A program made the translations under genes and the position numbers. The notes below the pieces were generated by a model, which was given only the letters and a program-made list of their open reading frames with translations, was not told the origin of the DNA and did no database searches. DNA of 35,549 nucleotides, from positions 1-35,549 of the forward strand of contig JAAZKT010000069.1 in assembly GCA_012799695.1 (NCBI GenBank), given 5' to 3'. Positions 75 to 14,864 of the stretch are shown here, piece by piece. This DNA is from Clostridiaceae bacterium (lineage in GTDB: Bacteria > Bacillota > Clostridia > Saccharofermentanales > DTU023). Position 1 is the first letter of the stretch. The number at the start of each line of letters is the position of its first letter.

Positions 75-1271
75 ATGGATCTAAAAAAGCTTATTGATCA
101 ACTGGAAGGCTACGACTATCAAGGGTTGTACGGCAGCGATTTTTTCCTGACATGGGATAAATCGCAAGACGAAATTATGGCCATTTTCGCGGTGGCGGAC
201 GCGTTGCGCGCGCTTCGCGAGAATAACAAGAGCGCCCGTGTTTTCGATTCGGGGCTCGGCATATCACTGTTCCGCGACAACTCGACGAGAACTCGTTTCT
301 CATTCGTGTCGGCATGTAACTTCCTAGGACTTGCGGTACAGGATCTGGATGAGGGCAAATCGCAGATTTCCCATGGCGAGACAGTCAAAGAGACGGCGAA
401 CATGATCTCTTTCATGGCGGACGTCATTGGTATTCGCGACGACATGTACATTGGCAAAGGTCACACCTACATGAAGAATGTCGCTAGTTATGTCGACGAA
501 GGTTTCAACGACGGCGTGCTCGAACAGCGCCCGACGCTTGTCAATCTGCAGTGCGACATTGACCACCCGACACAGACGATGGCCGACACGCTCCACATCA
601 TCCACGAGCTCGGCGGCGTCGAAAATCTTAAGGGTAAGAAAGTCGCCATGACATGGGCGTATTCACCTTCGTACGGCAAGCCTCTTTCCGTTCCGCAAGG
701 CGTGATCGGCTTGATGACGCGCTTCGGCATGGACGTCGTTCTCGCGCATCCGGAAGGATACGAAATCATGGACGAGATTGAAGGTGTCGCGAAGCACAAC
801 GAAGAGCAGTACGGCGGAAAGTTCACGCGCGTCGAGTCGATGGAAGAGGCATTCAAAGATGCCGATATCGTTTACCCGAAGAGCTGGGCACCGTTCAAGG
901 CGATGGAGATCCGCACAGATCTGTACGCCAAGGGCGACCAAGCCGGTATCGATGCGCTCGAGCAGGAACTGCTCGCAGAGAACGCGCTGCATAAGGACTG
1001 GACATGCTCCGAAGACATGATGAATTTGACAAAGGGCGGCAATGCGTTGTACATGCACTGTCTGCCTGCAGACATCACAGGCGTATCTTGCGCGGAAGGT
1101 GAAGTCGACGAGTCGGTCTTCGATCGCTACCGCGTCCCCTTATACAAAGAAGCGAGTTACAAACCTTACATCATCGCCGCGATGATCTTCCTGCAGAAGA
1201 TCAAGAATCCCGGCGCTAAGCTGGATGAGCTCTGGAGGGGCACGACGCCTCGCTGGGCCGATAATGGTTAA
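75..1271 (+). CDS. ygeW: Knotted carbamoyltransferase YgeW family
   Basis: 398 aa; carbamoyl-phosphate-binding motif DNSTRTRFSF, HPTQTMAD and MHCLPAD motifs; YgeW-like N-terminus; RBS gaggaaagagg upstream; followed by ygfK, ssnA and hydA as in known clusters. Confidence 0.92.
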   Translation: MDLKKLIDQLEGYDYQGLYGSDFFLTWDKSQDEIMAIFAVADALRALRENNKSARVFDSGLGISLFRDNSTRTRFSFVSACNFLGLAVQDLDEGKSQISHGETVKETANMISFMADVIGIRDDMYIGKGHTYMKNVASYVDEGFNDGVLEQRPTLVNLQCDIDHPTQTMADTLHIIHELGGVENLKGKKVAMTWAYSPSYGKPLSVPQGVIGLMTRFGMDVVLAHPEGYEIMDEIEGVAKHNEEQYGGKFTRVESMEEAFKDADIVYPKSWAPFKAMEIRTDLYAKGDQAGIDALEQELLAENALHKDWTCSEDMMNLTKGGNALYMHCLPADITGVSCAEGEVDESVFDRYRVPLYKEASYKPYIIAAMIFLQKIKNPGAKLDELWRGTTPRWADNG

Positions 1272-1583: not shown

Positions 1584-4500
1584 ATGAGCGATATTATGAG
1601 ACCGATCGGCTTCGCCAATCTCATCGATTGGAGTCTCCGGGAGTACAAGGAAAATGGTCGAGTATTCGGACTCGACAAGAGCAAGTTCTATTTTCCGAAA
1701 GGTGATAAGCACTTCCGCACACCGTTCGGCGAAGAGATCGCGACACCTGTCGGACCCGCTGCCGGCCCTCATTCACAACTTGCGCAGAACATTATTGTTT
1801 CTTATCTCGCGGGTGCTCGATTTATCGAGCTCAAGACCGTTCAGAAGATGGACGGTGAGGAGATTAGACATGCCGTAGCCAAGCCATGTATCAACGCAGA
1901 GGATGAATGCTACAACTGCGAATGGTCGACAGAGTTGACGGTACAAGAGGCATTTGACGAGTACGTCAAAGCGTGGATCGCACTGAAAGTTCTGGCAGTC
2001 GAATTCGGCATCTCGGACGGCAATGACTTCGCATACAATATGAGTGTCGGATATGACTTAGAGGGCATCAAGTTGCCGAAGATGGACGCTTTCATTGAAG
2101 GGATCAAAGACGCGTCCGAGACACCTATCTACAAAGAGTGTATGGATTTCCTGAGAGGTCACATGGGCCTCTTCGAGCGTGTGGATGAAGCCGTCGTCGA
2201 TGCGATTTCGCCGCGTCTCTGCAACCAGATAACCCTGTCCACATTGCACGGATGTCCGCCGGCGGAGATTGAGCGCATTGCGCATTACCTGTTGACGGAA
2301 AAACATTGTCATACATTCGTCAAATGCAATCCGACCATGCTCGGTTATGACTTTGTCAGAAAAACGCTCGACGATCTCGGCTACGACTACATTGTATTCC
2401 CCGACAAACACTTCCTTGCAGATTTGCAATTCGGCGATGCCCTCGGCATCTTCGAGCGAATGACAAAGGTGAGTCGAGAACAGGGGCTGGCGTTCGGCGT
2501 GAAGCTGACGAATACGTGTCCCGTTGATGTCACGAGAGGCGAAGTGCCATCGGAAGAGATGTACATGTCCGGCCGTTCTCTCTTGCCGCTGACGATCAGC
2601 TTGGCGCTGAAATTGTCGGAGGCGTTCGAAGGCAAACTCCCCGTTTCATTTGCGGGAGGAGCTGACGGATTGAATATGGCGGCCATCCTGGAGACGGGAA
2701 TCGGCCCCGTCACCGTCGCGACGACACTCTTGAAACCCGGCGGATATGCACGTTTTAAACAGATGGTGGAGGAGTCTGAACCTTACCTCGGGAACGAGAG
2801 CAGTGATATCGATCTTCTCAAGCTGAGAGCGTTGGCACAATCGTTGCTCGAGGATCCGAGAACACAAAAACGCTGGCGCGAGAAAGTCTGGTCGCGTAAA
2901 ACCGACTCGGAACTCCCGCTTTACGACTGCTACAAGGCACCGTGTAAAGACGGCGGCTGTCCCATCAATCAGCAGATTCCCGAGTACAACACGCTTGTCG
3001 CTCGCGGTGACTACGACGAGGCGTTCCGCGTGATCGCCATCGACAATGCATGCCCTACGATCACCGGTATATTGTGTGCTCAGCCGTGTCGTGAACACTG
3101 CACGCGCATCGATTACGACGTTTCGCTCCATATGCGCGAAATCAAGAAAAAAGCTGCCGACGAGGCGCAGGATAATTACAATGCGGCGTTCAGGCCTAGA
3201 CCGGTGCGCACCGACAAGAAAGTCTGTGTAATCGGCGCCGGTCCCGGAGGTGTCGCGGCGGCCTATTATCTGGCGCGCAACGGTGTAGCCGTCGATGCTT
3301 TCGAGAAAAGAGCCGAATCGCACGGTATCGTTCGCTATGCGATTCCTTCGTTCAGAATCTCAAAGGAAGAGATCGACCGCGACTTGGCACTGGCGAAGGC
3401 GGCCGGCGTAAAATTCCATTTCAACGCCGATCCTAATGTCAAGCTCGACGCGCTCAAAGACAAATACGACTATGTTGTGCTGGCAATCGGCGCATGGGCG
3501 AAGGGTCGCTCACCTGTTACCGAGGGCGGCGAGAAAGTCTTGGATTCTCTCGATTTCCTGTTGTCCGTCAAGAAAGACGGTCCGCGCGATCTCGGGAAAA
3601 AAGTCGCCGTTGTCGGCGCGGGGGACGTCGCGATGGACTGCGCGCGCCTTGCGAAGCGTATGCCCGGATCGCCCGAAGTGACAATCGTCTATCGCCGTAC
3701 GGAAATGTACGCTCCGGCAAGCCAAGACGAGTTCGACGAGGCGATGTCGGAAGGCGTCGAGTGGCGCGAACTCCTTGCCCCGGTCAGTTACGATGGCAAA
3801 CAGCTCGTCTGTGAAAAGCAGTATCTTGGCGGTTTCGATGAATCGGGCCGCAGGGCGTGTCTCGGAACGGGCGAGATGGTAACGCTGGAATTTGACACAG
3901 TCATCGGAGCGACGGGCGCGAGGGTCGATCAATCGCTCTTCAACGACTGGAAGCTCTCCTGCGACAAGTGGGGCAGCCCGTTCGTCTCGGATGCGATGGA
4001 ATCCTCTATCGACGGAGTCTATGTCATCGGTGACTGCCGCAAGGGTCCTTCGACGATCGTTGCCGCGATGGGCGACGCGAAGAAGGCGGCGATCGATATT
4101 CTTGCGAAAGAAGGCCTCGCGCACAACTTCGATCGCGTTCTCGTCGCGAAAGACGAGGACGTCATCGTCGACCGTCGCGGAGTCTTGGTCGAAACGCAAT
4201 CTACACCTGAAAAGGAAGGCGAACGCTGTCTCCTTTGCGATCAGCTCTGCCGCATCTGTACCGAAGTCTGTCCGAACCGCGCCAATGTGGCGGTTCTTGT
4301 GGACGGTTTCGATATCGCGGAACAGATTATCCACGTGGACGGTATGTGTAACGAGTGCGGTAACTGCGCGACGTTCTGTCCGCACGCCGGAAGACCTTAC
4401 AAGGACAAACTGACGCTCTTCTGGAGTGAGGAAGATTTCGTCGATTCGGAGAACATCGGTTTCCTCAAGCTCGCAGACGATAAGTACAGAATTCGAGACG

Positions 4501-4634
4501 AGCGCGGTCGCGTGTTCGATACGGCTCTGGAAGGCGATGAGCTTGACAAGCGTATGGCAAAAGTCATCGAAGCCGTCAACGAAAAGGCTCCTTGGCTTTA
4601 CAACGCGGCGTGCCATAAGGCTTGTTGTGAATAG
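1584..4634 (+). CDS. ygfK: YgfK family Fe-S flavoprotein (putative selenate reductase-like subunit; DHOD-like + GltD-like + ferredoxin domains)
   Basis: 1016 aa; DHOD-like N-terminus (TPVGPAAGPHSQLAQNI), GltD-type Cys motifs (CYKAPCKDGGCPINQQIPEY, CAQPCREHC), dinucleotide motifs GAGPGG and GAGDVAMDCAR, C-terminal ferredoxin motifs CRICTEVCP and CNECGNCATFCP; RBS aaggagagg. Confidence 0.93.
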   Translation: MSDIMRPIGFANLIDWSLREYKENGRVFGLDKSKFYFPKGDKHFRTPFGEEIATPVGPAAGPHSQLAQNIIVSYLAGARFIELKTVQKMDGEEIRHAVAKPCINAEDECYNCEWSTELTVQEAFDEYVKAWIALKVLAVEFGISDGNDFAYNMSVGYDLEGIKLPKMDAFIEGIKDASETPIYKECMDFLRGHMGLFERVDEAVVDAISPRLCNQITLSTLHGCPPAEIERIAHYLLTEKHCHTFVKCNPTMLGYDFVRKTLDDLGYDYIVFPDKHFLADLQFGDALGIFERMTKVSREQGLAFGVKLTNTCPVDVTRGEVPSEEMYMSGRSLLPLTISLALKLSEAFEGKLPVSFAGGADGLNMAAILETGIGPVTVATTLLKPGGYARFKQMVEESEPYLGNESSDIDLLKLRALAQSLLEDPRTQKRWREKVWSRKTDSELPLYDCYKAPCKDGGCPINQQIPEYNTLVARGDYDEAFRVIAIDNACPTITGILCAQPCREHCTRIDYDVSLHMREIKKKAADEAQDNYNAAFRPRPVRTDKKVCVIGAGPGGVAAAYYLARNGVAVDAFEKRAESHGIVRYAIPSFRISKEEIDRDLALAKAAGVKFHFNADPNVKLDALKDKYDYVVLAIGAWAKGRSPVTEGGEKVLDSLDFLLSVKKDGPRDLGKKVAVVGAGDVAMDCARLAKRMPGSPEVTIVYRRTEMYAPASQDEFDEAMSEGVEWRELLAPVSYDGKQLVCEKQYLGGFDESGRRACLGTGEMVTLEFDTVIGATGARVDQSLFNDWKLSCDKWGSPFVSDAMESSIDGVYVIGDCRKGPSTIVAAMGDAKKAAIDILAKEGLAHNFDRVLVAKDEDVIVDRRGVLVETQSTPEKEGERCLLCDQLCRICTEVCPNRANVAVLVDGFDIAEQIIHVDGMCNECGNCATFCPHAGRPYKDKLTLFWSEEDFVDSENIGFLKLADDKYRIRDERGRVFDTALEGDELDKRMAKVIEAVNEKAPWLYNAACHKACCE

Positions 4635-4778: not shown

Positions 4779-6101
4779 ATGATTATTGGTAACGGAAGAT
4801 TAATTACGAACTGTGAAGACAACCTTTATTTTAAAAACGGCGCCGTGCGCGTCGTCGGTGAATTAATTGAAGAAGTCGGCGACTTCGAAGATTTAAAAGC
4901 GCGTTTCCCCGATGACGAAGTCTTTGACGTCGGCGGTCGCATTATCATGCCGGGCATGATCAATGCGCATACGCACATCTACAGCTCCTACGCGCGCGGC
5001 ATGGGCGTATCGAAGCCGACGCGCAATTTCCCGGAGATTCTGGAAAATCTTTGGTGGGCGCTCGACCGTAGCCTGACGCTGGAAGATTGTGAGCTGTCGG
5101 CGTACACAACGTATATCGAAAGCATTCAAAACGGCGTGACAACGCTGTTTGACCACCATGCGAGCCCGAACGCCGCCAAAGGTTCTCTCTTCGCTCTGGC
5201 GGAAGCGGCGAGAGAGATCGGTATCCGCGGTTCATTCTCGATGGAAGTCTCCGATCGCGATGGCGAAAAAATCACGGATGCGGAGATCAAGGAGAATGTC
5301 GACTTCATCAAAGCGATGAATACGGACGAACAGGACATGATTAAAGGGATGTTCGGTATGCACGCCTCCTTTACGATCTCCGACAAGACGATGGAGAAAA
5401 TCGTCAAATCGATGGAAGGCATCGATGCCGGCTACCACGTTCACGTAGGTGAAGGTCGTGAAGACCAGTACGACAGCCTGAAAAAATACGATTGCCGCGT
5501 CGTAGAGCGTTTGCTCGGCTGGAACATGCTCGGCCCGAAGTCGATCGCCGTTCACGCTGTCCATGTCAATGGCCGCGAGCTCGATATTCTTGCGGAGACG
5601 GACACGACTGTCGTACACAACCCGATGTCCAACATGGGTAATGCTGTCGGCGCGACACCGGTGATCGGTATGTTGGCGCGCGGCATTCGCCTAGGCATGG
5701 GTACCGACGCTTACACGCATGATATGTTCGAATCGGTCAAAGTGTCGAAGATCTTGCAGTCTTACAGACTCTCCGATCCGACAGTCGGGTTCGGTCAAGC
5801 ATTGCAGCTACAGTTTGACAACAACCCCGCCATCTGTGCGAAGCACTTCAAGCGCCCGCTCGGTATGTTGAAACCGGGAGCCTACGCCGACATTATTACG
5901 CTAGACTACGCTCCGTTTACGCCTTTCGGCGCAAACAATTGGAGAGGGCATATCTTGTTCGGTTGCTACGGCCGCATGACAAACGACGTGATCATCAACG
6001 GTAAAGTCGTGATGAAGGATCGCGCCATTCTTACGGTCGACGTCGAGAAGATTAACGCACGCACGGAAGCTCGCGCCGCAGAAGTCTGGAAGAACCTATA
6101 A
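4779..6101 (+). CDS. ssnA: SsnA family putative aminohydrolase (amidohydrolase superfamily)
   Basis: 440 aa; metal-binding HTH (NAHTHIYSSYARGMG), VHVGEGRED, GTDAYTHDMFE; located between ygfK and hydA; RBS aggaggtc. Confidence 0.9.
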   Translation: MIIGNGRLITNCEDNLYFKNGAVRVVGELIEEVGDFEDLKARFPDDEVFDVGGRIIMPGMINAHTHIYSSYARGMGVSKPTRNFPEILENLWWALDRSLTLEDCELSAYTTYIESIQNGVTTLFDHHASPNAAKGSLFALAEAAREIGIRGSFSMEVSDRDGEKITDAEIKENVDFIKAMNTDEQDMIKGMFGMHASFTISDKTMEKIVKSMEGIDAGYHVHVGEGREDQYDSLKKYDCRVVERLLGWNMLGPKSIAVHAVHVNGRELDILAETDTTVVHNPMSNMGNAVGATPVIGMLARGIRLGMGTDAYTHDMFESVKVSKILQSYRLSDPTVGFGQALQLQFDNNPAICAKHFKRPLGMLKPGAYADIITLDYAPFTPFGANNWRGHILFGCYGRMTNDVIINGKVVMKDRAILTVDVEKINARTEARAAEVWKNL

Positions 6102-6112
6102 TTGATATTAAT

Positions 6113-6147
6113 ATGGCGCGGGAGCCGAACTCCGGTTTCCGCGCCAT
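6113..6147 (+). other. Intergenic hairpin after ssnA (possible weak terminator)
   Basis: ATGGCGCGG...CCGCGCCAT perfect 9-bp stem; no clear U-tract. Confidence 0.5.
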
Positions 6148-6276
6148 CTAAAGTGATAAGGCGAAGTACCACCCTGCTTGCGACGCGAGAATCGCTCGGC
6201 GAGCGGGGGTGGTGTCTTGTTTGCGCTTTCATGAGACACTGAAGCAAATATCCGGCTTCGAAACAATAAGTGAAGA

Positions 6277-7692
6277 GTGGGAGATAACATGAAACACAGC
6301 ATGCTTCTGAAGGACGGTTACATCGTTCTGCCCGACGAGACCGTCAAGGGCAGCATACGCATCCGCGGCGAAGTGATTGAGGCTTTGGGCGACATCGTCC
6401 CCCTCGACCATGAGGAAATAATCGACTGTTCCGATTGCTATTTTCTTCCCGGGGGGATTGAGACGCATACGCATCTCGATTTAGAGTCGATGGGAACGGT
6501 CACCGCCGACGACTTCAAGACCGGGACATTGGCGGCCTTGGCGGGCGGCACGACGACCGTCCTTGACTTTGCCACGCAATTCCATGGCGAATCGATGGCG
6601 CGCGGTCTTGAGCGCTGGCATGAGAAGGCTGACGGACGGTCGGCGATCGATTACGGCTTTCATATGGCGTTGACGGAGTGGAATGACGATTTGAAGAGCG
6701 AAATGGCTTCGATCGTCGACGACGGTATTACCTCCTTCAAGATGTACATGGCGTACAAGGGACGGATGATGGTGCAGGAGGACGAGATTTACGAGGCGCT
6801 TGAGGAAGCGGGAAAGTTGGGCGCGACGATCGGGTTCCATTGTGAGAACGGACTGCTCATCGACTTGTTCACCAAGCGGATCAAGGAGGCAGGCAACCTC
6901 ACGCCTTACTACCATCAGATGACACGACCTGCCGAACTCGAGGCTGAGGCGATTGATCGCCTTGAGACGGTCGTTTCGCTACTCCACACCAATCACTATG
7001 TCGTGCATCTTTCGACGGCACGAGGATTGTCTAGTGTTCTCCGCGCCAGAGAGCGCGGCAATGACGTTATCGTGGAGACGTGCCCGCAGTATCTCTTGCT
7101 TGACCGCTCACGTTACGGGACACCGGAGGAGCACAATTTTGAATCCGCAAAATTTATCATGAGTCCGCCGCTCCGCGAGCGTCGCGACCAGGAAGCGCTG
7201 TGGCAGGGGTTGGCATCAGGAGATATCCAGTTTGTCGGTACGGATCATTGCTCCTTTAATTTCAAAGGCCAAAAAGAAATGGGTCGCGGGGATTTCTCAA
7301 AGATTCCGAACGGTGCTCCGGGAATCGAACTGCGCATGAATCTTATGTATGCATATGGAGTCGCCGGAGGACGTATGGATATCAACCGTTTCTCCGTCGT
7401 CACATCGACGAACGCGGCCAAGTACTTCGGAATATTCCCGAGAAAAGGCATCTTGCAAATCGGTAGCGACGCCGATATCGTCGTTTTTGATCCGAAGGTG
7501 GAATGGACGGTCACTTCTGATATCTTGCATGAAAACTGCGACTACACGCCATATGAAGGATTCTCCCTCAAAGGAAAGGTGCGAGATGTCTTCCTGCGCG
7601 GCAACCGTAAAGTCATATCCGGAAATGTTGCGGTGAAGGACGCCAACGGTCAGTATTTGAGAAGAGGTTTGCCGGATACGGCGATCCGATAA
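6277..7692 (+). CDS. hydA: Dihydropyrimidinase / hydantoinase-type amidohydrolase
   Basis: 471 aa; GGIETHTHLDL, AGGTTTVLDF, candidate carbamylated Lys in GITSFKMYMAYKG, GTDHCSFNFKGQKEMG. Confidence 0.92.
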   Translation: MGDNMKHSMLLKDGYIVLPDETVKGSIRIRGEVIEALGDIVPLDHEEIIDCSDCYFLPGGIETHTHLDLESMGTVTADDFKTGTLAALAGGTTTVLDFATQFHGESMARGLERWHEKADGRSAIDYGFHMALTEWNDDLKSEMASIVDDGITSFKMYMAYKGRMMVQEDEIYEALEEAGKLGATIGFHCENGLLIDLFTKRIKEAGNLTPYYHQMTRPAELEAEAIDRLETVVSLLHTNHYVVHLSTARGLSSVLRARERGNDVIVETCPQYLLLDRSRYGTPEEHNFESAKFIMSPPLRERRDQEALWQGLASGDIQFVGTDHCSFNFKGQKEMGRGDFSKIPNGAPGIELRMNLMYAYGVAGGRMDINRFSVVTSTNAAKYFGIFPRKGILQIGSDADIVVFDPKVEWTVTSDILHENCDYTPYEGFSLKGKVRDVFLRGNRKVISGNVAVKDANGQYLRRGLPDTAIR

Positions 7693-7727: not shown

Positions 7728-10304
7728 GTGAGAGTTATGTCATGGACTTTAACGGTTAACAACCAAACACATACGGTCAATGAGGACAAAAGGCTGATCG
7801 ATTTCTTGCGAGACGATCTCCTCCTGATGTCAGTCAAAGACGGTTGTAGCGAGGGCGCGTGCGGTACATGTTCCGTCATTGTGGATGGCAAACTTGTTAA
7901 GGCATGTGTCCAGAAAGTCTCGAGATTTGACGGTTGTTCCGTCACGACGGTGGAGGGCCTTTCTCTGAGAGAGAAGGAAGTCTACGTTTACGCGTTCGGC
8001 GAGGCGGGAGCCGTACAGTGCGGTTACTGCACACCCGGCATGGTGATCGCTGCCAAAGTACTACTCGACAAAAACCCGGATCCTACGCGCGAAGAGATCC
8101 AAAGAGCGCTCGTCGGGAATCTCTGTCGATGCACGGGATACAAGAAGATTTTCGAGGCGATCGAGCTCGCTGCAAGATTGTTGAGGACGGGAGAACCCGT
8201 CGAAGCGCTACCTGATAAAGCTTCGCTCAGCGATAGGTCGCATCGCATCGACGTCGCGGAGAAAGTGCTCGGGACGGGCAAGTTTCCCGACGACTACCGA
8301 TTCGAAGGTATGATCTACGGTCAGGCGCTACGTCCGAAATATCCGCGTGTCCGCATCGACCGCATCGATATCTCGAAAGCGTTGGAACATCCCGATTGCG
8401 TCACCGTACTGACAGCCGATGATGTACCGGAAAATAAGATCGGCCATATTGTGCAGGATTGGGACGTCATGATCCGCGAAGGCGATGTCACGCGCTTTGT
8501 CGGTGATGCCATCGCTCTTGTCGCGACGAATAAGCGTGAAAGCCTTCAGGAAGTGCTCGACTTGATCGAAGTCGAGTACACGGTGCTGACACCTGTGCTG
8601 GATCCGTTCGACGCGATGAAAGACGATGCCCCGAAGCTTCATCCCGGAGGCAATATCCTGTCGAATGAACACCTCGTGCGCGGTGACGCGCATAAGGCTG
8701 TCGCGGAAGCGGCATACACCGTTACGGAGACGTACAAAGTCTCATGGGAAGAGCATGCGTTCCTCGAGACGGAATGCGCCATCGCTTGGCCTTCCGATGA
8801 CGGCGGCGTCAATTTGATCACCGCCTCGCAGTCGATCTACGACGAACAGCGCGAAATTTCGAATATGCTGAAGATAGACCCGAGTAAGGTCCATGTCAGA
8901 TCGGGGTTAGTCGGCGGCGCTTTCGGCGGTCGTGAGGATATGAGCGTCCAGCACCATGCGGCTCTTCTCGCGTGGAAGACAGGGCGTTACGTCAACGTGA
9001 AGCTCGACCGCTACACGAGTACGCTCGTCCACACTAAACGCCACCCGATGACGATGACGATGACGACGGCTTGCGATGAAAACGGGCGACTGACGGCACT
9101 TATTGCGGACATCGTCGCCGATACGGGTGCTTACGCTTCGCTTGGCGGCCCCGTCACGCAGCGAGCCTGCACACACGCCGGAGGACCCTACAATTTCCAA
9201 AACATCGATATCAAAGGAAAGGCAGTCTATACGAACAACGTCGTTTCCGGCGCGTTCCGCGGTTTTGGTGTCACTCAGAGTTGCTACGCGTTCGAGTGCA
9301 ACCTTAACTTGCTCGCCGACAAAATGGGCATGGATCCGTGGGAGTTCCGTTATCTGAACGTAGTTCGCCCCGGCGATGTTTTGCCGAACGGACAGATTGT
9401 CGATGAAAGTTGCGGCTTGGCGGAGTGTCTCGAAGCAGTCCGCGATGCATACGAATCGAGTCCTTATGCCGGTATTGCATGCGGGTTCAAGAATAGCGGC
9501 ATCGGTGTCGGCTTGCCCGACTTCGGCCGCTGTACTCTGTCTGTCGAAAACGGAAAGATTCGCATCAGAACATCAGCGGCGTGTACCGGTCAGGGGATCG
9601 CGCAAGTGATGACGACGATCACGTGTCAGACGATCGGCTGTCGCCCTTCGGATACCGTCTTCGAAAAGCCGTTTACTGATCGCACGCCCGATGCAGGAAC
9701 GAGTACGGCGTCTAGGCAGACCTTGTTTACGGGTGAGGCGACGCGTCGGGCGGCGCTCGATCTGAAGAAGTCGCTCGATGAGGCGGGCGGAGAATTGGCG
9801 GCATTAGAAGGACGCGAGTTCTTCGGTGAATTCGGTCCGCCGACCGACCCTATGGGTTCACCTAAAGACAACCCTGTCAGCCATATCGGATACAGTTACG
9901 GTTGTGAAGTCGCGATCATCGATGAGAAGGGCAAACTCGAGAAGATGGTCGGAGCGTACGATCTCGGGACGCCGATCAACATTCAGGCCGTTGAAGGCCA
10001 GATTGAAGGCGGCTGTGTGATGAGTCTCGGTTACGCTTTGACGGAATACTTCGACAACGAGGGCGGCATTCCGAATTTCAAGCTCGGCACATATGGTCTG
10101 TTCCGTGCCAATCGCGTCCCGGAGATCGAGACCCGCATCGTGCGAGGTCCCGGCTACGTAGATCACGCATTCGGTGCACGCGGTGTCGGAGAGCTCGCCT
10201 GTGTGCCGATTGCACCGGCGGTTGCGCACGCTTATTACAGACTCGATGGCAAGATGAGGAAGAGCTTGCCCATGGAGGATACGTTCTACCGCAAAGCGAA
10301 ATAA
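7728..10304 (+). CDS. Selenium-dependent xanthine dehydrogenase-type molybdenum hydroxylase (fused 2x[2Fe-2S] and molybdopterin domains; XdhD-like)
   Basis: 858 aa; plant-type Fe-S motif CSEGACGTCSVIVDGKLVKAC, second cluster CGYCTPGM...GNLCRCTGY, molybdopterin-domain motifs GGAFGGRED, GAFRGFGVTQ, GARGVGE; context with ygfK and ssnA. Confidence 0.9.
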   Translation: MRVMSWTLTVNNQTHTVNEDKRLIDFLRDDLLLMSVKDGCSEGACGTCSVIVDGKLVKACVQKVSRFDGCSVTTVEGLSLREKEVYVYAFGEAGAVQCGYCTPGMVIAAKVLLDKNPDPTREEIQRALVGNLCRCTGYKKIFEAIELAARLLRTGEPVEALPDKASLSDRSHRIDVAEKVLGTGKFPDDYRFEGMIYGQALRPKYPRVRIDRIDISKALEHPDCVTVLTADDVPENKIGHIVQDWDVMIREGDVTRFVGDAIALVATNKRESLQEVLDLIEVEYTVLTPVLDPFDAMKDDAPKLHPGGNILSNEHLVRGDAHKAVAEAAYTVTETYKVSWEEHAFLETECAIAWPSDDGGVNLITASQSIYDEQREISNMLKIDPSKVHVRSGLVGGAFGGREDMSVQHHAALLAWKTGRYVNVKLDRYTSTLVHTKRHPMTMTMTTACDENGRLTALIADIVADTGAYASLGGPVTQRACTHAGGPYNFQNIDIKGKAVYTNNVVSGAFRGFGVTQSCYAFECNLNLLADKMGMDPWEFRYLNVVRPGDVLPNGQIVDESCGLAECLEAVRDAYESSPYAGIACGFKNSGIGVGLPDFGRCTLSVENGKIRIRTSAACTGQGIAQVMTTITCQTIGCRPSDTVFEKPFTDRTPDAGTSTASRQTLFTGEATRRAALDLKKSLDEAGGELAALEGREFFGEFGPPTDPMGSPKDNPVSHIGYSYGCEVAIIDEKGKLEKMVGAYDLGTPINIQAVEGQIEGGCVMSLGYALTEYFDNEGGIPNFKLGTYGLFRANRVPEIETRIVRGPGYVDHAFGARGVGELACVPIAPAVAHAYYRLDGKMRKSLPMEDTFYRKAK

Positions 10305-10337: not shown

Positions 10338-11360
10338 ATGGATTCGTCTAAGGATAATTGTTCAGTCCCGAGAGAAGAGTTGCCGCGCGCCTCCGCCGTA
10401 ATCGTCGCGTCGCGACCGTTGGAGCGACCCGAATCGGTGACAGTTCTTGGGGAGGATCAACAGGTCCTGCCCGCTTTACTCCGAATCGGCAGAATCAGCT
10501 TGATTGAGCGCTTGATCATCCGACTGCAGACGGTGGGGATTGCTCCGATCGTCGTGATTACCGGTTTCAAGAGCGGCAACTTGGAGAAACACCTTGTCAG
10601 AATGAACGTCGTCAGCCTCCATAATGATCATTGGAGCAGGACGACTTTGTTTGATGACGCGATCAAAGGGCTATCTTACATCGACAGAACATGTAGAGAC
10701 TGCGAGAAGATTTTTCTTATGACACCCATGATCCCGTCCGTCGACACATCGACATTGACGCGCCTTCTCTCTTCACCGTCAAGCGTCACCGTTCCCGTCT
10801 ACGAGGGGGAAAACGGCTTGCCGATTGTCTTTCGTAAAGATACCGTCCAGCAGCTCGCCCGAGCGGAAAAAGGTCATACGTTTGAGGAACTCATCGCTGC
10901 CGTTCCCGGGGCGGTCGAGCGGATCGCGCTCGACGATCGTGGGGTTTTGCCGGAGGCGCTACCGACGGATTTGTTCGAGGGTTGCGAGTCATGTCTGGAA
11001 GATGCGATGAAGTTGCCGATGCGCGTGCGCTTCAAACTCAGTCTCGCGCGCGAGAAAATCTTTTTCGGCCCTGGCCCCGCCGTGCTGTTACGTCTGATTG
11101 ACGAGACGGGATCGGTGCGCATGGCTTGTCAGCGGATGAAGCTCTCTTACAGTAAAGGATGGCAGATTCTGAATCTCCTCGAAGAACAGCTGGGCGAGAA
11201 TGTGATCGTCCGCAAACCGGGCGGTCAGGAAGGCGGTAGCAGTACCTTGACGGATACCGGTCGCGAGCTGCTGCGGCGATATGAACAATTCTCGGTCGAA
11301 ACGCAACAGCACGTCAACGATTTGTTCGAACAGTTATTTAAAGGATTTTTCGTGGAGTAG
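10338..11360 (+). CDS. Fusion of MobA/MocA-like (degenerate) nucleotidyltransferase domain with C-terminal ModE-type HTH domain
   Basis: 340 aa; N-terminus resembles a Rossmann-like NTP transferase (AVIVAS...LLRIGRISLIERLIIRLQTVGIAPIVVITGFKSGNLEKHL); C-terminus GPAVLLRLIDETGSVRMACQRMKLSYSKGWQILNLLEEQLGENVIVRKPGGQEGGSSTLTDTGRELLRRYEQF matches the ModE N-terminal DNA-binding domain; RBS ggagga. Confidence 0.8.
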   Translation: MDSSKDNCSVPREELPRASAVIVASRPLERPESVTVLGEDQQVLPALLRIGRISLIERLIIRLQTVGIAPIVVITGFKSGNLEKHLVRMNVVSLHNDHWSRTTLFDDAIKGLSYIDRTCRDCEKIFLMTPMIPSVDTSTLTRLLSSPSSVTVPVYEGENGLPIVFRKDTVQQLARAEKGHTFEELIAAVPGAVERIALDDRGVLPEALPTDLFEGCESCLEDAMKLPMRVRFKLSLAREKIFFGPGPAVLLRLIDETGSVRMACQRMKLSYSKGWQILNLLEEQLGENVIVRKPGGQEGGSSTLTDTGRELLRRYEQFSVETQQHVNDLFEQLFKGFFVE

Positions 11361-11441: not shown

Positions 11442-13631
11442 GTGGGCAACTTGGTGATGACGAGAGAGATAACAAAGAAAACAAATCGAAAGCTTCAAAT
11501 TGTTATCGGCAGGACATGGTATGATGCGCCGCCTATTTTTTCATTGCGCGATGTTGTCATTCGCGGTAGCGAACAATATGGCGACAGACCCGCCGTTCGC
11601 TGGCGTGTCAGACCGCGTGATCATGAAATAGTGACGAAGTCTTACAGCGAACTGTCACGTGATGTCGCGCGTGTTCAGGCTTGGCTCGGCGAGCGGCTGC
11701 CAAGAGGCAGTCGTATCGCCTTAATAGGCGACAACAGTTATGCGTGGATGGTGACTTGGCTTGCTGTGGCTTCAGGGTTCGGTGTGATCGTGCCTCTCGA
11801 TCGACTGTTGCAGCCGCAGGAGCTTATTCCGTGCATTCAACGCAGTCAGACGGTCATGCTGATTTACGACTATGCCTGGCATCAACGCGTGGAATCGATG
11901 CTCGATGACTTTCCGTTATTGAAGTACCGAGCAGCTATGGATCGTGGACTGATGTCGGACGATGAAAGCATGGCATTCAGGGCGTGCATGGCTGAAGACG
12001 AGACGCTCTTGCTGCTTGACGACGCACTCGAGACACCTTTGGAAGACAGCACGGTGGCGACACATCTTCTCGAACCCGAAGACGTAGAAGACGATGCTGC
12101 GATTCTTTTCACATCAGGGACGAGTGCGACCTCCAAAGCGGTCATTTTGACGAACAAATCAATCACTGCCGACATTCGCGCGCTTCGCGGTTCCGTCTTT
12201 TTCGGCAAGTATTTCAAATCGCTTTCCATTCTCCCCCTGCACCACGCTTTTGAGAATACGTGCGGTTTTCTTACCGTGTTGTCGTTTGGCGGAACGATAC
12301 ATATCTATGATGGATTGCGGTACATCGGGAACAACTTTGCTGAACATAAGGTGCACTTGACGGTTGTCGTACCTGCTGTTCTGGATGCAATTCATCGCCG
12401 CGTAATCAATGAGGCACGGCGTACCGGGCAATTGAAGAAACTGCAGTTCGGTATGTTCGTGTCCACTTTGCTTTATAAGCTCGGCATCGACAGGCGACGC
12501 GTTCTAATGAAGGATGTCCTTGACAAGTTGGGTGGCAATCTCAAGTGGGTGATCTGCGGGGCGGCTCCCGTTGAACGCAGTACGCTCAAGTTTTTCCGCG
12601 CGATTGGCGTAGAAGTTTTGGCGGGTTATGGGTTGACGGAAGCGTCGCCGGTTGTCGGTGGCGGCAACACGAAGGTCAACCCGTTCGGCACGGTTGGTCA
12701 GCCGCTGTCAGGCGTAGAAGTCGCCATCGATAATGGCGGTAAGCGCGGTCAACCCGGCGAGATTCTCGTTCGCTCCGATATCATCATGAAAGGTTATTTG
12801 AACGATCCGGAGGCGACCGCGGAGGCAATTGACGGCGACGGATGGCTTCATACGGCTGATATCGGTTATTTCACAAGAAAAGATGGACTGATTATCACTG
12901 GGCGGAGCAAGTCGATGATCGTTCTTGCGAGCGGGAAAAAGGTGTTCCCGGAAGAACTGGAACTGTTGATCAATCGCCATGAGATCGTTCGCGATTCTCT
13001 CGTTTTCGGCCATGAGGGAGCTTCCGGAGATATTGTTATCACGGCGAAAATCGTGATCGATGAGAATAAATGGCGCAAATTACAAGGGGCAGAGGCGACG
13101 GAGGAAGACGTTGCGCGTTCGATCAAATCGATTATCGATGAAGTCAATCGAAATCTGCCCTCGTTCAAGAGCGTTCGCTCTTATTTCTATAGTTTCAAAG
13201 ATATGATTAAAACGACAACGCTTAAAGTGAGGCGTGGCGTTGAACTGCAGAAAATTGAAGAATTGTTCGCTAAGACAAAGATTTCATGGCAGACATTGCG
13301 TGGTCAGAACATTGACAGTTTCATTGAAAAATACGTTCACGGCGGCAGTGTGTTGCCCGCGGAGGATAAGGTTTCTCGAACGGCAGACCGAAAAATGCTC
13401 GTGGATATGCGTTCCGAACGGAGAGAGATGGAGCGCGCTCGACGCAAACTGCAGAAGAGACGCAATGAGCTCGAAAGGCGGAAGAAAGCCCTGCATATGC
13501 TTAGCGAGAAGTTGGAAGAGATGGAAGAACGCCTTGTTGCCGATGAATTGGCGTTTAAGGCGGAATTCAAGGATATATCGTCGTTCACAGGTGTGACGAC
13601 GATAGAAGTGCCTTCGACGTCGTCTTTCTAA
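11442..13631 (+). CDS. AMP-dependent synthetase/ligase (long-chain acyl-CoA synthetase-like) with C-terminal coiled coil
   Basis: 729 aa; ILFTSGTSATSKAVILTNKS (P-loop), YGLTEASPVV, GWLHTADIGYFTRKDGLIITGRSKSMIVLASGKKVFPEELE; Lys/Arg/Glu-rich coiled-coil-like tail. Start could be GTG 11442 or ATG 11457. Confidence 0.85.
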   Translation: MGNLVMTREITKKTNRKLQIVIGRTWYDAPPIFSLRDVVIRGSEQYGDRPAVRWRVRPRDHEIVTKSYSELSRDVARVQAWLGERLPRGSRIALIGDNSYAWMVTWLAVASGFGVIVPLDRLLQPQELIPCIQRSQTVMLIYDYAWHQRVESMLDDFPLLKYRAAMDRGLMSDDESMAFRACMAEDETLLLLDDALETPLEDSTVATHLLEPEDVEDDAAILFTSGTSATSKAVILTNKSITADIRALRGSVFFGKYFKSLSILPLHHAFENTCGFLTVLSFGGTIHIYDGLRYIGNNFAEHKVHLTVVVPAVLDAIHRRVINEARRTGQLKKLQFGMFVSTLLYKLGIDRRRVLMKDVLDKLGGNLKWVICGAAPVERSTLKFFRAIGVEVLAGYGLTEASPVVGGGNTKVNPFGTVGQPLSGVEVAIDNGGKRGQPGEILVRSDIIMKGYLNDPEATAEAIDGDGWLHTADIGYFTRKDGLIITGRSKSMIVLASGKKVFPEELELLINRHEIVRDSLVFGHEGASGDIVITAKIVIDENKWRKLQGAEATEEDVARSIKSIIDEVNRNLPSFKSVRSYFYSFKDMIKTTTLKVRRGVELQKIEELFAKTKISWQTLRGQNIDSFIEKYVHGGSVLPAEDKVSRTADRKMLVDMRSERREMERARRKLQKRRNELERRKKALHMLSEKLEEMEERLVADELAFKAEFKDISSFTGVTTIEVPSTSSF

Positions 13632-13667
13632 GGCACTTTACGGATAAAAGAAAAGAAGGAATTCACT

Positions 13668-14864
13668 ATGAAAAAGCATGTTTGGCTTATCAAAGCACCG
13701 GATGACAATCGCGATCCTTACTTGACGAATATGTGCAAGGATCAGCTCGAAAAAATTGAGAAAGAGCTCGGTTGTGAACTTGAGTTTACGGAAGATTTCG
13801 ATGTCTTCGCCGCTCAACCGCTGAGATTGTTCTATATCGGTTCAGGCGGTTCTGAGATGCTGTTCCGCGCGGTGTACGACAAAGTGGAAGGCCCGTATTA
13901 TCTTCTGACGCAGCGTGCGCACAACTCGCTCGCCGCTTCGATGGAGATTCTCTCGTTCCTCGGCGAGCAGGGTCGTAGCGGCGAAATCCTGCACGGCGAT
14001 CCAGATGAACTCGCTCGCCGTATTCGCATTCTGATGAGAGCCGTCGAAACGAAGGAGAAACTGAAGGGCATGCGTCTCGGTGTCACCGGCGAGTCCGATT
14101 GGCTCATCGGCGCTCCAGTCGATGGGGAACTTTTGCGCGAGCGGAGCGGGATGGAGCTTGTTCACGTTCCGATGTCGGAAATCTTTGCCGAGTGGGAAAA
14201 GCATACTTATGAGGACAATGAGTGGACGCTTCTCCTGAAAGGCTTGGGATACGACGAGGACGAGATGGAAAGAGCGCTCAATGTTTACGGCGCATGTCGA
14301 AGAATTGTTGATCGCTATGCGCTTGACGCGATCACTTTGCGCTGTTTCGATTTGCTTGAGCCGGCGTGCATTACCGGATGTCTCGCGCTCGGTATACTCA
14401 ACGCGGAAGGGATTTGGGCGGCGTGCGAGGGCGACAGCCGTTCGCTCGTTTCGATGGTCGTCATCGGAGAATTGACCGGGCAGCCCGTTTTCATGGCGAA
14501 CCCGTCGAGACTGTATCACGCCAAGAAAGAAATCGTATTTGCGCACTGTATCCTTCCGCTCGATATGACGGAGAAATACAAACTCACGACTCACTTTGAG
14601 AGCGGTCTCGGTATTTCGGTCGCGGCGGATCTTCCCGCTGACGCCTGCACGGTGTTCAAATGTCGCGAGGATTTCGAAACATACTTCGCGGCTGACGGGC
14701 GCATTCTCACCAGCATGCATGAAGGTAACTTGTGCCGCACGCAGATCTCACTCGAAATCCCGAAAGGACTCGATTATTTCACGACGAGACCGATCGCGAA
14801 CCACCATATGATCGTTCTTGGAAACTATGAAGAACTGGTCGACGAATTCTATCGACTGTTCTAG
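13668..14864 (+). CDS. L-fucose isomerase-like fold protein
   Basis: 398 aa; AACEGDSRSLVSMVVIGELTGQPVFMANPSR and ANHHMIVLGNY resemble fucose/arabinose isomerase-family C-terminal regions; RBS gaagga. Confidence 0.6.
   Translation: MKKHVWLIKAPDDNRDPYLTNMCKDQLEKIEKELGCELEFTEDFDVFAAQPLRLFYIGSGGSEMLFRAVYDKVEGPYYLLTQRAHNSLAASMEILSFLGEQGRSGEILHGDPDELARRIRILMRAVETKEKLKGMRLGVTGESDWLIGAPVDGELLRERSGMELVHVPMSEIFAEWEKHTYEDNEWTLLLKGLGYDEDEMERALNVYGACRRIVDRYALDAITLRCFDLLEPACITGCLALGILNAEGIWAACEGDSRSLVSMVVIGELTGQPVFMANPSRLYHAKKEIVFAHCILPLDMTEKYKLTTHFESGLGISVAADLPADACTVFKCREDFETYFAADGRILTSMHEGNLCRTQISLEIPKGLDYFTTRPIANHHMIVLGNYEELVDEFYRLF

Follow-up and report, generated by a model that had tools for sequence, protein, structure and literature searches.

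A MocA-like pseudo-nucleotidyltransferase fused to a ModE-type winged helix beside a clostridial selenium-dependent xanthine dehydrogenase

In a contig of a Clostridiaceae bacterium (JAAZKT010000069.1), a gene that appears to join a MocA-like nucleotidyltransferase (NTase) to a DNA-binding domain lies directly behind a selenium-dependent xanthine dehydrogenase (XDH), which raises the question of whether its product is an enzyme of molybdenum cofactor synthesis, a transcriptional regulator, or both. The original prediction, made from the sequence alone, was that a cytidylyltransferase-derived domain had been repurposed as a sensor that controls the surrounding gene cluster through the ModE domain. 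The following features lie in the window, that is, the whole stretch of 35,549 nucleotides that was analysed:

75..1271, + strand: YgeW knotted carbamoyltransferase (TIGR03316, over cut-off)
1584..4634, + strand: YgfK reductase (TIGR03315, over cut-off)
4779..6101, + strand: SsnA aminohydrolase (TIGR03314 and NF005540, over cut-off)
6277..7692, + strand: dihydropyrimidinase/hydantoinase of the HyuA/YgeZ type (TIGR02033, over cut-off)
7728..10304, + strand: selenium-dependent XDH (TIGR03311, over cut-off), 33 nt upstream of the fusion
10338..11360, + strand: MocA-like pseudo-nucleotidyltransferase/ModE winged-helix fusion (340 aa, ATG start)
10389..10955, + strand: NTase domain, residues about 18-206 (P-loop Gly, Lys and Mg-binding Asp lost)
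10692..10703, + strand: C119-x-x-C122 motif (sequence comparison)
10956..11021, + strand: variable linker, residues 207-228 (low pLDDT at 214-219; dN/dS about 1 against L066)
11022..11339, + strand: ModE-type winged helix-turn-helix (HTH), residues 229-334 (TIGR00637, 2ijl, 1b9m)
11442..13631, + strand: AMP-binding acyl-CoA-ligase-like protein, the downstream neighbour of the fusion, conserved in the genus

A two-domain protein within a reductive purine cluster

The five genes upstream of the fusion all exceed their NCBIfam cut-offs, which bears out the claim of a selenium-dependent purine cluster; the adjacent hydroxylase, previously called xdhD, is corrected to the selenium-dependent XDH of TIGR03311. 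Together these genes form a cluster for reductive urate/purine degradation. The E. coli versions of such cluster genes form a reductive uric acid pathway according to a 2025 study, in which a term search found no mention of a regulator (PMC12507026). The order ygfK-ssnA-hydantoinase-XDH-fusion recurs across the genus, and the fusion follows XDH at a distance of 33 nt in the window and overlaps it by about 4 nt in G003 and G008, which makes co-transcription of the two genes likely. Terminator-like hairpins (long inverted repeats) between ygeW, ygfK and ssnA suggest that the cluster as a whole is not one transcript. In the intergenic regions named with the original prediction (1396-1583, 6102-6276 and upstream of position 75), palindromic dyads and aligned upstream regions yielded no shared operator motif. 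Rfam gave no RNA element at gathering score anywhere in the window, and hence no known Moco riboswitch.

Downstream of the fusion (11442-14864), the acyl-CoA-ligase-like gene is followed by one for a protein weakly similar to sulfoquinovose isomerase. Both are conserved behind the fusion in most of the genus, and many relatives have an extra ORF of 165-197 aa in between.

The two domains of the fusion were recognized as predicted. The N-terminal part is a MobA/MocA-like nucleotidyltransferase by its match to Pfam NTP_transf_3 (residues 46-186, 36.3 bits against a cut-off of 27, E 8e-9) and by Foldseek, whose top PDB folds for this domain are MobA/MocA-like, for example 3d5n and Rv0371c (2we9). 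The C-terminal part matches TIGR00637 (ModE_repress) over residues 248-327 and model positions 7-86 of 100 (E 1e-16); its 60.8 bits lie under the curated whole-protein cut-off of 98.5. Among PDB sequences, phmmer matched this part to the ModE-like protein 2ijl (E 2.6e-11) and to E. coli ModE (1b9m/1o7l). The AlphaFold2 model (54 sequences; mean pLDDT 88, pTM 0.88) shows an alpha/beta NTase domain followed by a winged helix whose C-terminal helix is long; it is weak at the N-terminus, in the linker at 214-219 and at residues 32-36, the expected place of the P-loop. The profile matches and the model thus place an enzyme-derived domain and a DNA-binding domain in a single chain, which is also the sole good ModE-domain match in the window genome.

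No full-length family model fits this protein, since both halves fall under the cut-offs of NF045665, TIGR03310 and TIGR00637. The best NCBIfam match of the NTase half, the DVU_1551 family (NF045665), covers the N-terminal half only, with model positions up to about 196 of 359 matching and the C-terminal part not; the window fusion scores 67.6 bits against a cut-off of 315, and relatives with intact sites about 172-195 bits. The MocA model TIGR03310 matches weakly (residues 47-203, E 1.3e-7, 31.8 bits against a cut-off of 186.45, under which likely active MocAs of these genomes also fall, such as a YqeC-MocA protein with 162 bits). The fusion shares with MocA/YgfJ the NTase fold and the place beside selenium-dependent XDH genes, and differs in its sub-cut-off score, the loss of the active-site Gly, Lys and Asp, and the added HTH. 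With E. coli ModE it shares the winged HTH, and its relatives often lie near molybdenum genes, but in ModE the HTH is N-terminal, whereas here the MocA-like domain precedes it. As had been claimed, Pfam and NCBIfam searches found no TOBE/Mop domain in the fusion.

Loss of the catalytic site under continued selection

Alignment to E. coli MocA (AAGLSSRMGQWK ... GDMP against VASRPLERPES...VLPA ... TPMIPS in the window) established that the degenerate glycine-rich loop and the lost Asp noted earlier are real and common to the genus: both the AAGxSxRMGxxK loop of MocA and the Asp of DxP, here PMIP, are absent. Within the genus, the DxP Asp was lost in 11 of 11 members, the loop in all ten with a complete N-terminus, and the former catalytic Lys is replaced by a fixed Pro (11/11). 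We scored 56 fusions, from Clostridia and one from Fusobacterium naviforme, against E. coli MocA, and called intact those that retain four residues only (the P-loop Gly, the Arg, the Lys and the DxP Asp); 13 did so and 43, among them the whole genus of the window, did not. On a tree made without the scored columns, parsimony required at least five changes of catalytic state over the 56 fusions, and two dead groups are nested within a fully supported clade that also holds intact members; some deep branches of this tree are weak. Four very long branches of the family (L112, L105, L113 and L116) carry strongly altered NTase halves, and their placement is unsure.

The dead NTase domain is, judging from substitution patterns, kept under purifying selection. 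Compared with its closest relative (L066, 90% identical), the window fusion has a dN/dS of 0.22 in the NTase domain (0.061/0.280), 0.026 in the ModE HTH (0.012/0.467) and about 1 in the short linker. Thirty of 189 NTase positions and 55 of 106 HTH positions are invariant within the genus, and T75, G76, P153, G160, P162, D200 and G202 of the NTase core are invariant in both the genus and the intact members. A Hungatella/Lachnospiraceae clade (L076, L077, L082, L083, L085, L088-L092, L094, L097 and L123) has exchanged the Lys for Gln and the Mg-binding Asp for Lys, both fixed in 13 of 13 members, so that its pocket looks as if it had been re-tooled. Since replacements are fixed within two clades, the catalytic losses are unlike random decay. 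In the window's genus, C119 of the C119xxC122 motif sits in a three-residue insertion that is exclusive to the genus (11/11), and C122 is nearly family-wide; the AlphaFold2 model places the motif in a loop preceding the strand that leads toward the former DxP site.

Distribution of the fusion and of a separate MocA

The fusion is a widespread type of architecture in Clostridia. Of the 14 genomes of the genus that were searched, 12 have it, that of the window among them, as do many other Clostridia, and we rejected the possibility that it is unique to the window. We collected 80 relatives from genome contigs, some of which are HTH only; both domains are carried by Hungatella, Lachnospiraceae, Schaedlerella, Faecalimonas, Acetivibrio ethanolgignens and F. 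naviforme. Among 148 genomes sampled evenly across the class, a full-length match turned up in five apart from that of the window. Molybdenum or selenium genes (modABC, moaABC, moeA, xdhC, yqeB, yqeC and molybdenum hydroxylases) occur in the fetched flanks of 51 of the 56 fusions, a raw count without a background rate, and modABC, moaA or moeA are direct neighbours at many loci. In sister-genus loci (L045, L124-L126 and L128), a ModE-only protein of about 140 aa lies behind ssnA.

Other observations concern the surroundings of these proteins. A protein of about 360-385 aa lies directly downstream of intact fusions in L080 and L099, and in the same place in L081 and L110; the two copies scanned (L080 and L099) contain a histidine-phosphatase and an HD domain. 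Two sequences labelled as Enterococcus phages (PQ519982.1 and OR846590.1), which may hold host DNA, show 41% identity to the ModE-like HTH.

Genomes of the genus also encode a protein in which MocA is fused behind YqeC (531 aa in G009), adjoining yqeB, and this protein matches the MocA model far better than the fusion does. YqeC-MocA fusions (TIGR03172 plus TIGR03310) occur in the window's genus, in the sister genus g3 and in Candidatus Caccovicinus (L046:7785-9377 in G009, L047, L049-L052, L055 and L083, the domain pair having been shown by HMM for L046, L055 and L083). An intact MocA was not found in the window assembly. The window genome (L153) does carry the YqeC half, 80% identical to that of G009 over residues 26-296, on a contig that stops short of the MocA half, and a gap in the assembly is therefore the most likely reason for the missing MocA; given this cut copy and the YqeC-MocA proteins of other genus genomes, we rejected the fusion as the organism's sole MocA. 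The same assembly (G000) has several further molybdenum-hydroxylase genes elsewhere (L060-L063, on C33, C83, C94 and C98), and a MoeA_N domain was not found in it.

Across the comparison set, a separate MocA (TIGR03310 at E <= 1e-20, the fusion itself excluded and the window counted as present) was found in 40 of 42 genomes with a dead fusion and in 5 of 12 with an intact one (Fisher p = 1e-4, with species not independent). MocA matches were assigned to the fusion or to a separate gene manually, from position and frame length. A phylogenetically corrected test would have at most five independent pairs and no power, and with so few independent contrasts the relationship between a dead fusion and a separate MocA is an association only. 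In the window's genus, a separate YqeC-MocA for catalysis would leave the fusion free to act as a sensor or regulator.

The predicted place of the fusion, where related clusters have a MocA-like gene, is matched in Enterococcus faecalis, whose cluster has mocA directly behind xdh and a separate ModE-like HTH protein of about 120 aa just upstream. Such stand-alone ModE-like proteins, in E. faecalis and in the selenium-dependent purine clusters of the sister genus, belong to the same HTH family and the same kind of cluster as the fusion but lack the NTase.

A proposed enzyme-derived sensor and its alternatives

We consider it probable that the fusion belongs to the ModE family of regulators and senses through a domain derived from an enzyme, being a MocA "trigger enzyme" by ancestry and a pseudoenzyme here. 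It would act as a one-component transcriptional regulator in which a MocA-like NTase takes the N-terminal place and TOBE domains are missing. Its ancestor was likely a bifunctional MocA that combined catalysis with DNA binding, in the manner of BirA or NadR; in the genus, the NTase, stripped of its phosphate loop, catalytic Lys and Mg-binding Asp, would be a pseudoenzyme that reports a molybdenum-cofactor-related ligand or partner to the DNA-binding domain. Candidate inputs are an MPT or MCD species and, alternatively, a partner in the maturation of the selenium-dependent hydroxylase. The fusion directly follows the selenium-dependent XDH gene and probably shares a transcript with it, and for this reason its most likely role is to adjust expression of the reductive urate/purine cluster to the supply of cofactor, whether by raising or by lowering transcription of its putative targets.

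The original sensor proposal is supported in part: the noncatalytic cytidylyltransferase-derived domain, the TOBE-less ModE HTH, the purifying selection, the linkage to the selenium-dependent XDH and the separate YqeC-MocA all speak for it. The fusion is not specific to selenium-dependent purine clusters, as it is widespread in Clostridia, most sampled members are degenerate and many lie beside modABC, moa or moe genes. The findings that would have spoken against repurposing were absent, in that the catalytic residues are not intact, the C-terminus does have a ModE fold and a search of an open-access library found no published description of the fusion.

A different account of the same domain, which we regard as rather unlikely, has the NTase serve for docking or dimerisation: it would bind apo-XDH or one of the maturation proteins YqeC-MocA, YqeB and XdhC and would regulate through that contact, with no small molecule sensed. 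The loss of the nucleotide loop, whose replacement is variable and poorly ordered, would fit docking, as would the close linkage to XDH and the conserved new C119xxC122, which the fold suggests to lie away from the nucleotide pocket; the seven invariant core residues from T75 to G202, however, would equally suit a binding pocket. That the NTase half is a decaying remnant without a role, with the ModE HTH working alone as in stand-alone ModE-like proteins, seems very improbable to us. The ModE-only proteins behind ssnA in the sister genus and the faster evolution of the NTase half than of the HTH would agree with decay, but a dN/dS of about 0.1-0.2, truncation at a contig edge only, the 30 invariant NTase positions and the fixed replacements at former catalytic positions in two clades argue against it.

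We give still less credence to a molybdopterin nucleotidyltransferase that remains active with non-standard residues and has the HTH as a secondary trait. The fusion does occupy the place of mocA as seen in E. faecalis, and relatives with intact sites exist, 7 of 12 of them in genomes where no other MocA was found; yet the P-loop Gly, the catalytic Lys and the Mg-binding Asp are all gone in every scorable genus member, and the genus has in YqeC-MocA a far better match to MocA.

The sensor reading has functional parallels. BirA and NadR are enzyme-regulator fusions, and the MocR/GabR and ROK regulators have enzyme-derived sensors. In all of these a DNA-binding domain is combined with an enzyme domain, active or not, that senses the pathway to which it belongs; the enzymes and pathways are others, and the proposed likeness to the fusion is one of function. 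For gut TOBE-domain proteins, a published survey names ModE-like regulators that carry either one TOBE domain or two, as well as a TaoR-like form, and the NTase-ModE fusion is not among them (PMC11980592). A term search of papers on molybdenum, selenium and urate did not find the fusion either (PMC6147048, PMC5322559, PMC11980592, PMC11448449, PMC2276186 and PMC12507026). The novelty lies in the combination of a known type of HTH with a sensor derived from an enzyme, each of these elements being familiar by itself.

Taken jointly, the observations could be drawn into a broader account that we offer only tentatively, as it is probably not correct in full. In Clostridia, a MocA-ModE trigger enzyme would have turned, on several independent occasions, into a pseudoenzyme that senses the dinucleotide molybdenum cofactor or a precursor of it, after catalysis had passed to another MocA; cells would then read finished cofactor rather than free molybdate, and the CxxC of the genus would add a metal, selenium or redox input to urate/purine control.

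Members of the family range by degrees from enzymes that are apparently active to others that are clearly inactive, which makes the step from enzyme to sensor directly testable. A further prediction of the proposal is that in the E. faecalis cluster MocA and the ModE-like protein, although encoded separately, work together. If it is true, uric acid degradation in anaerobes would involve a regulator that senses by way of a cofactor-synthesis enzyme and not by a molybdate-binding domain.
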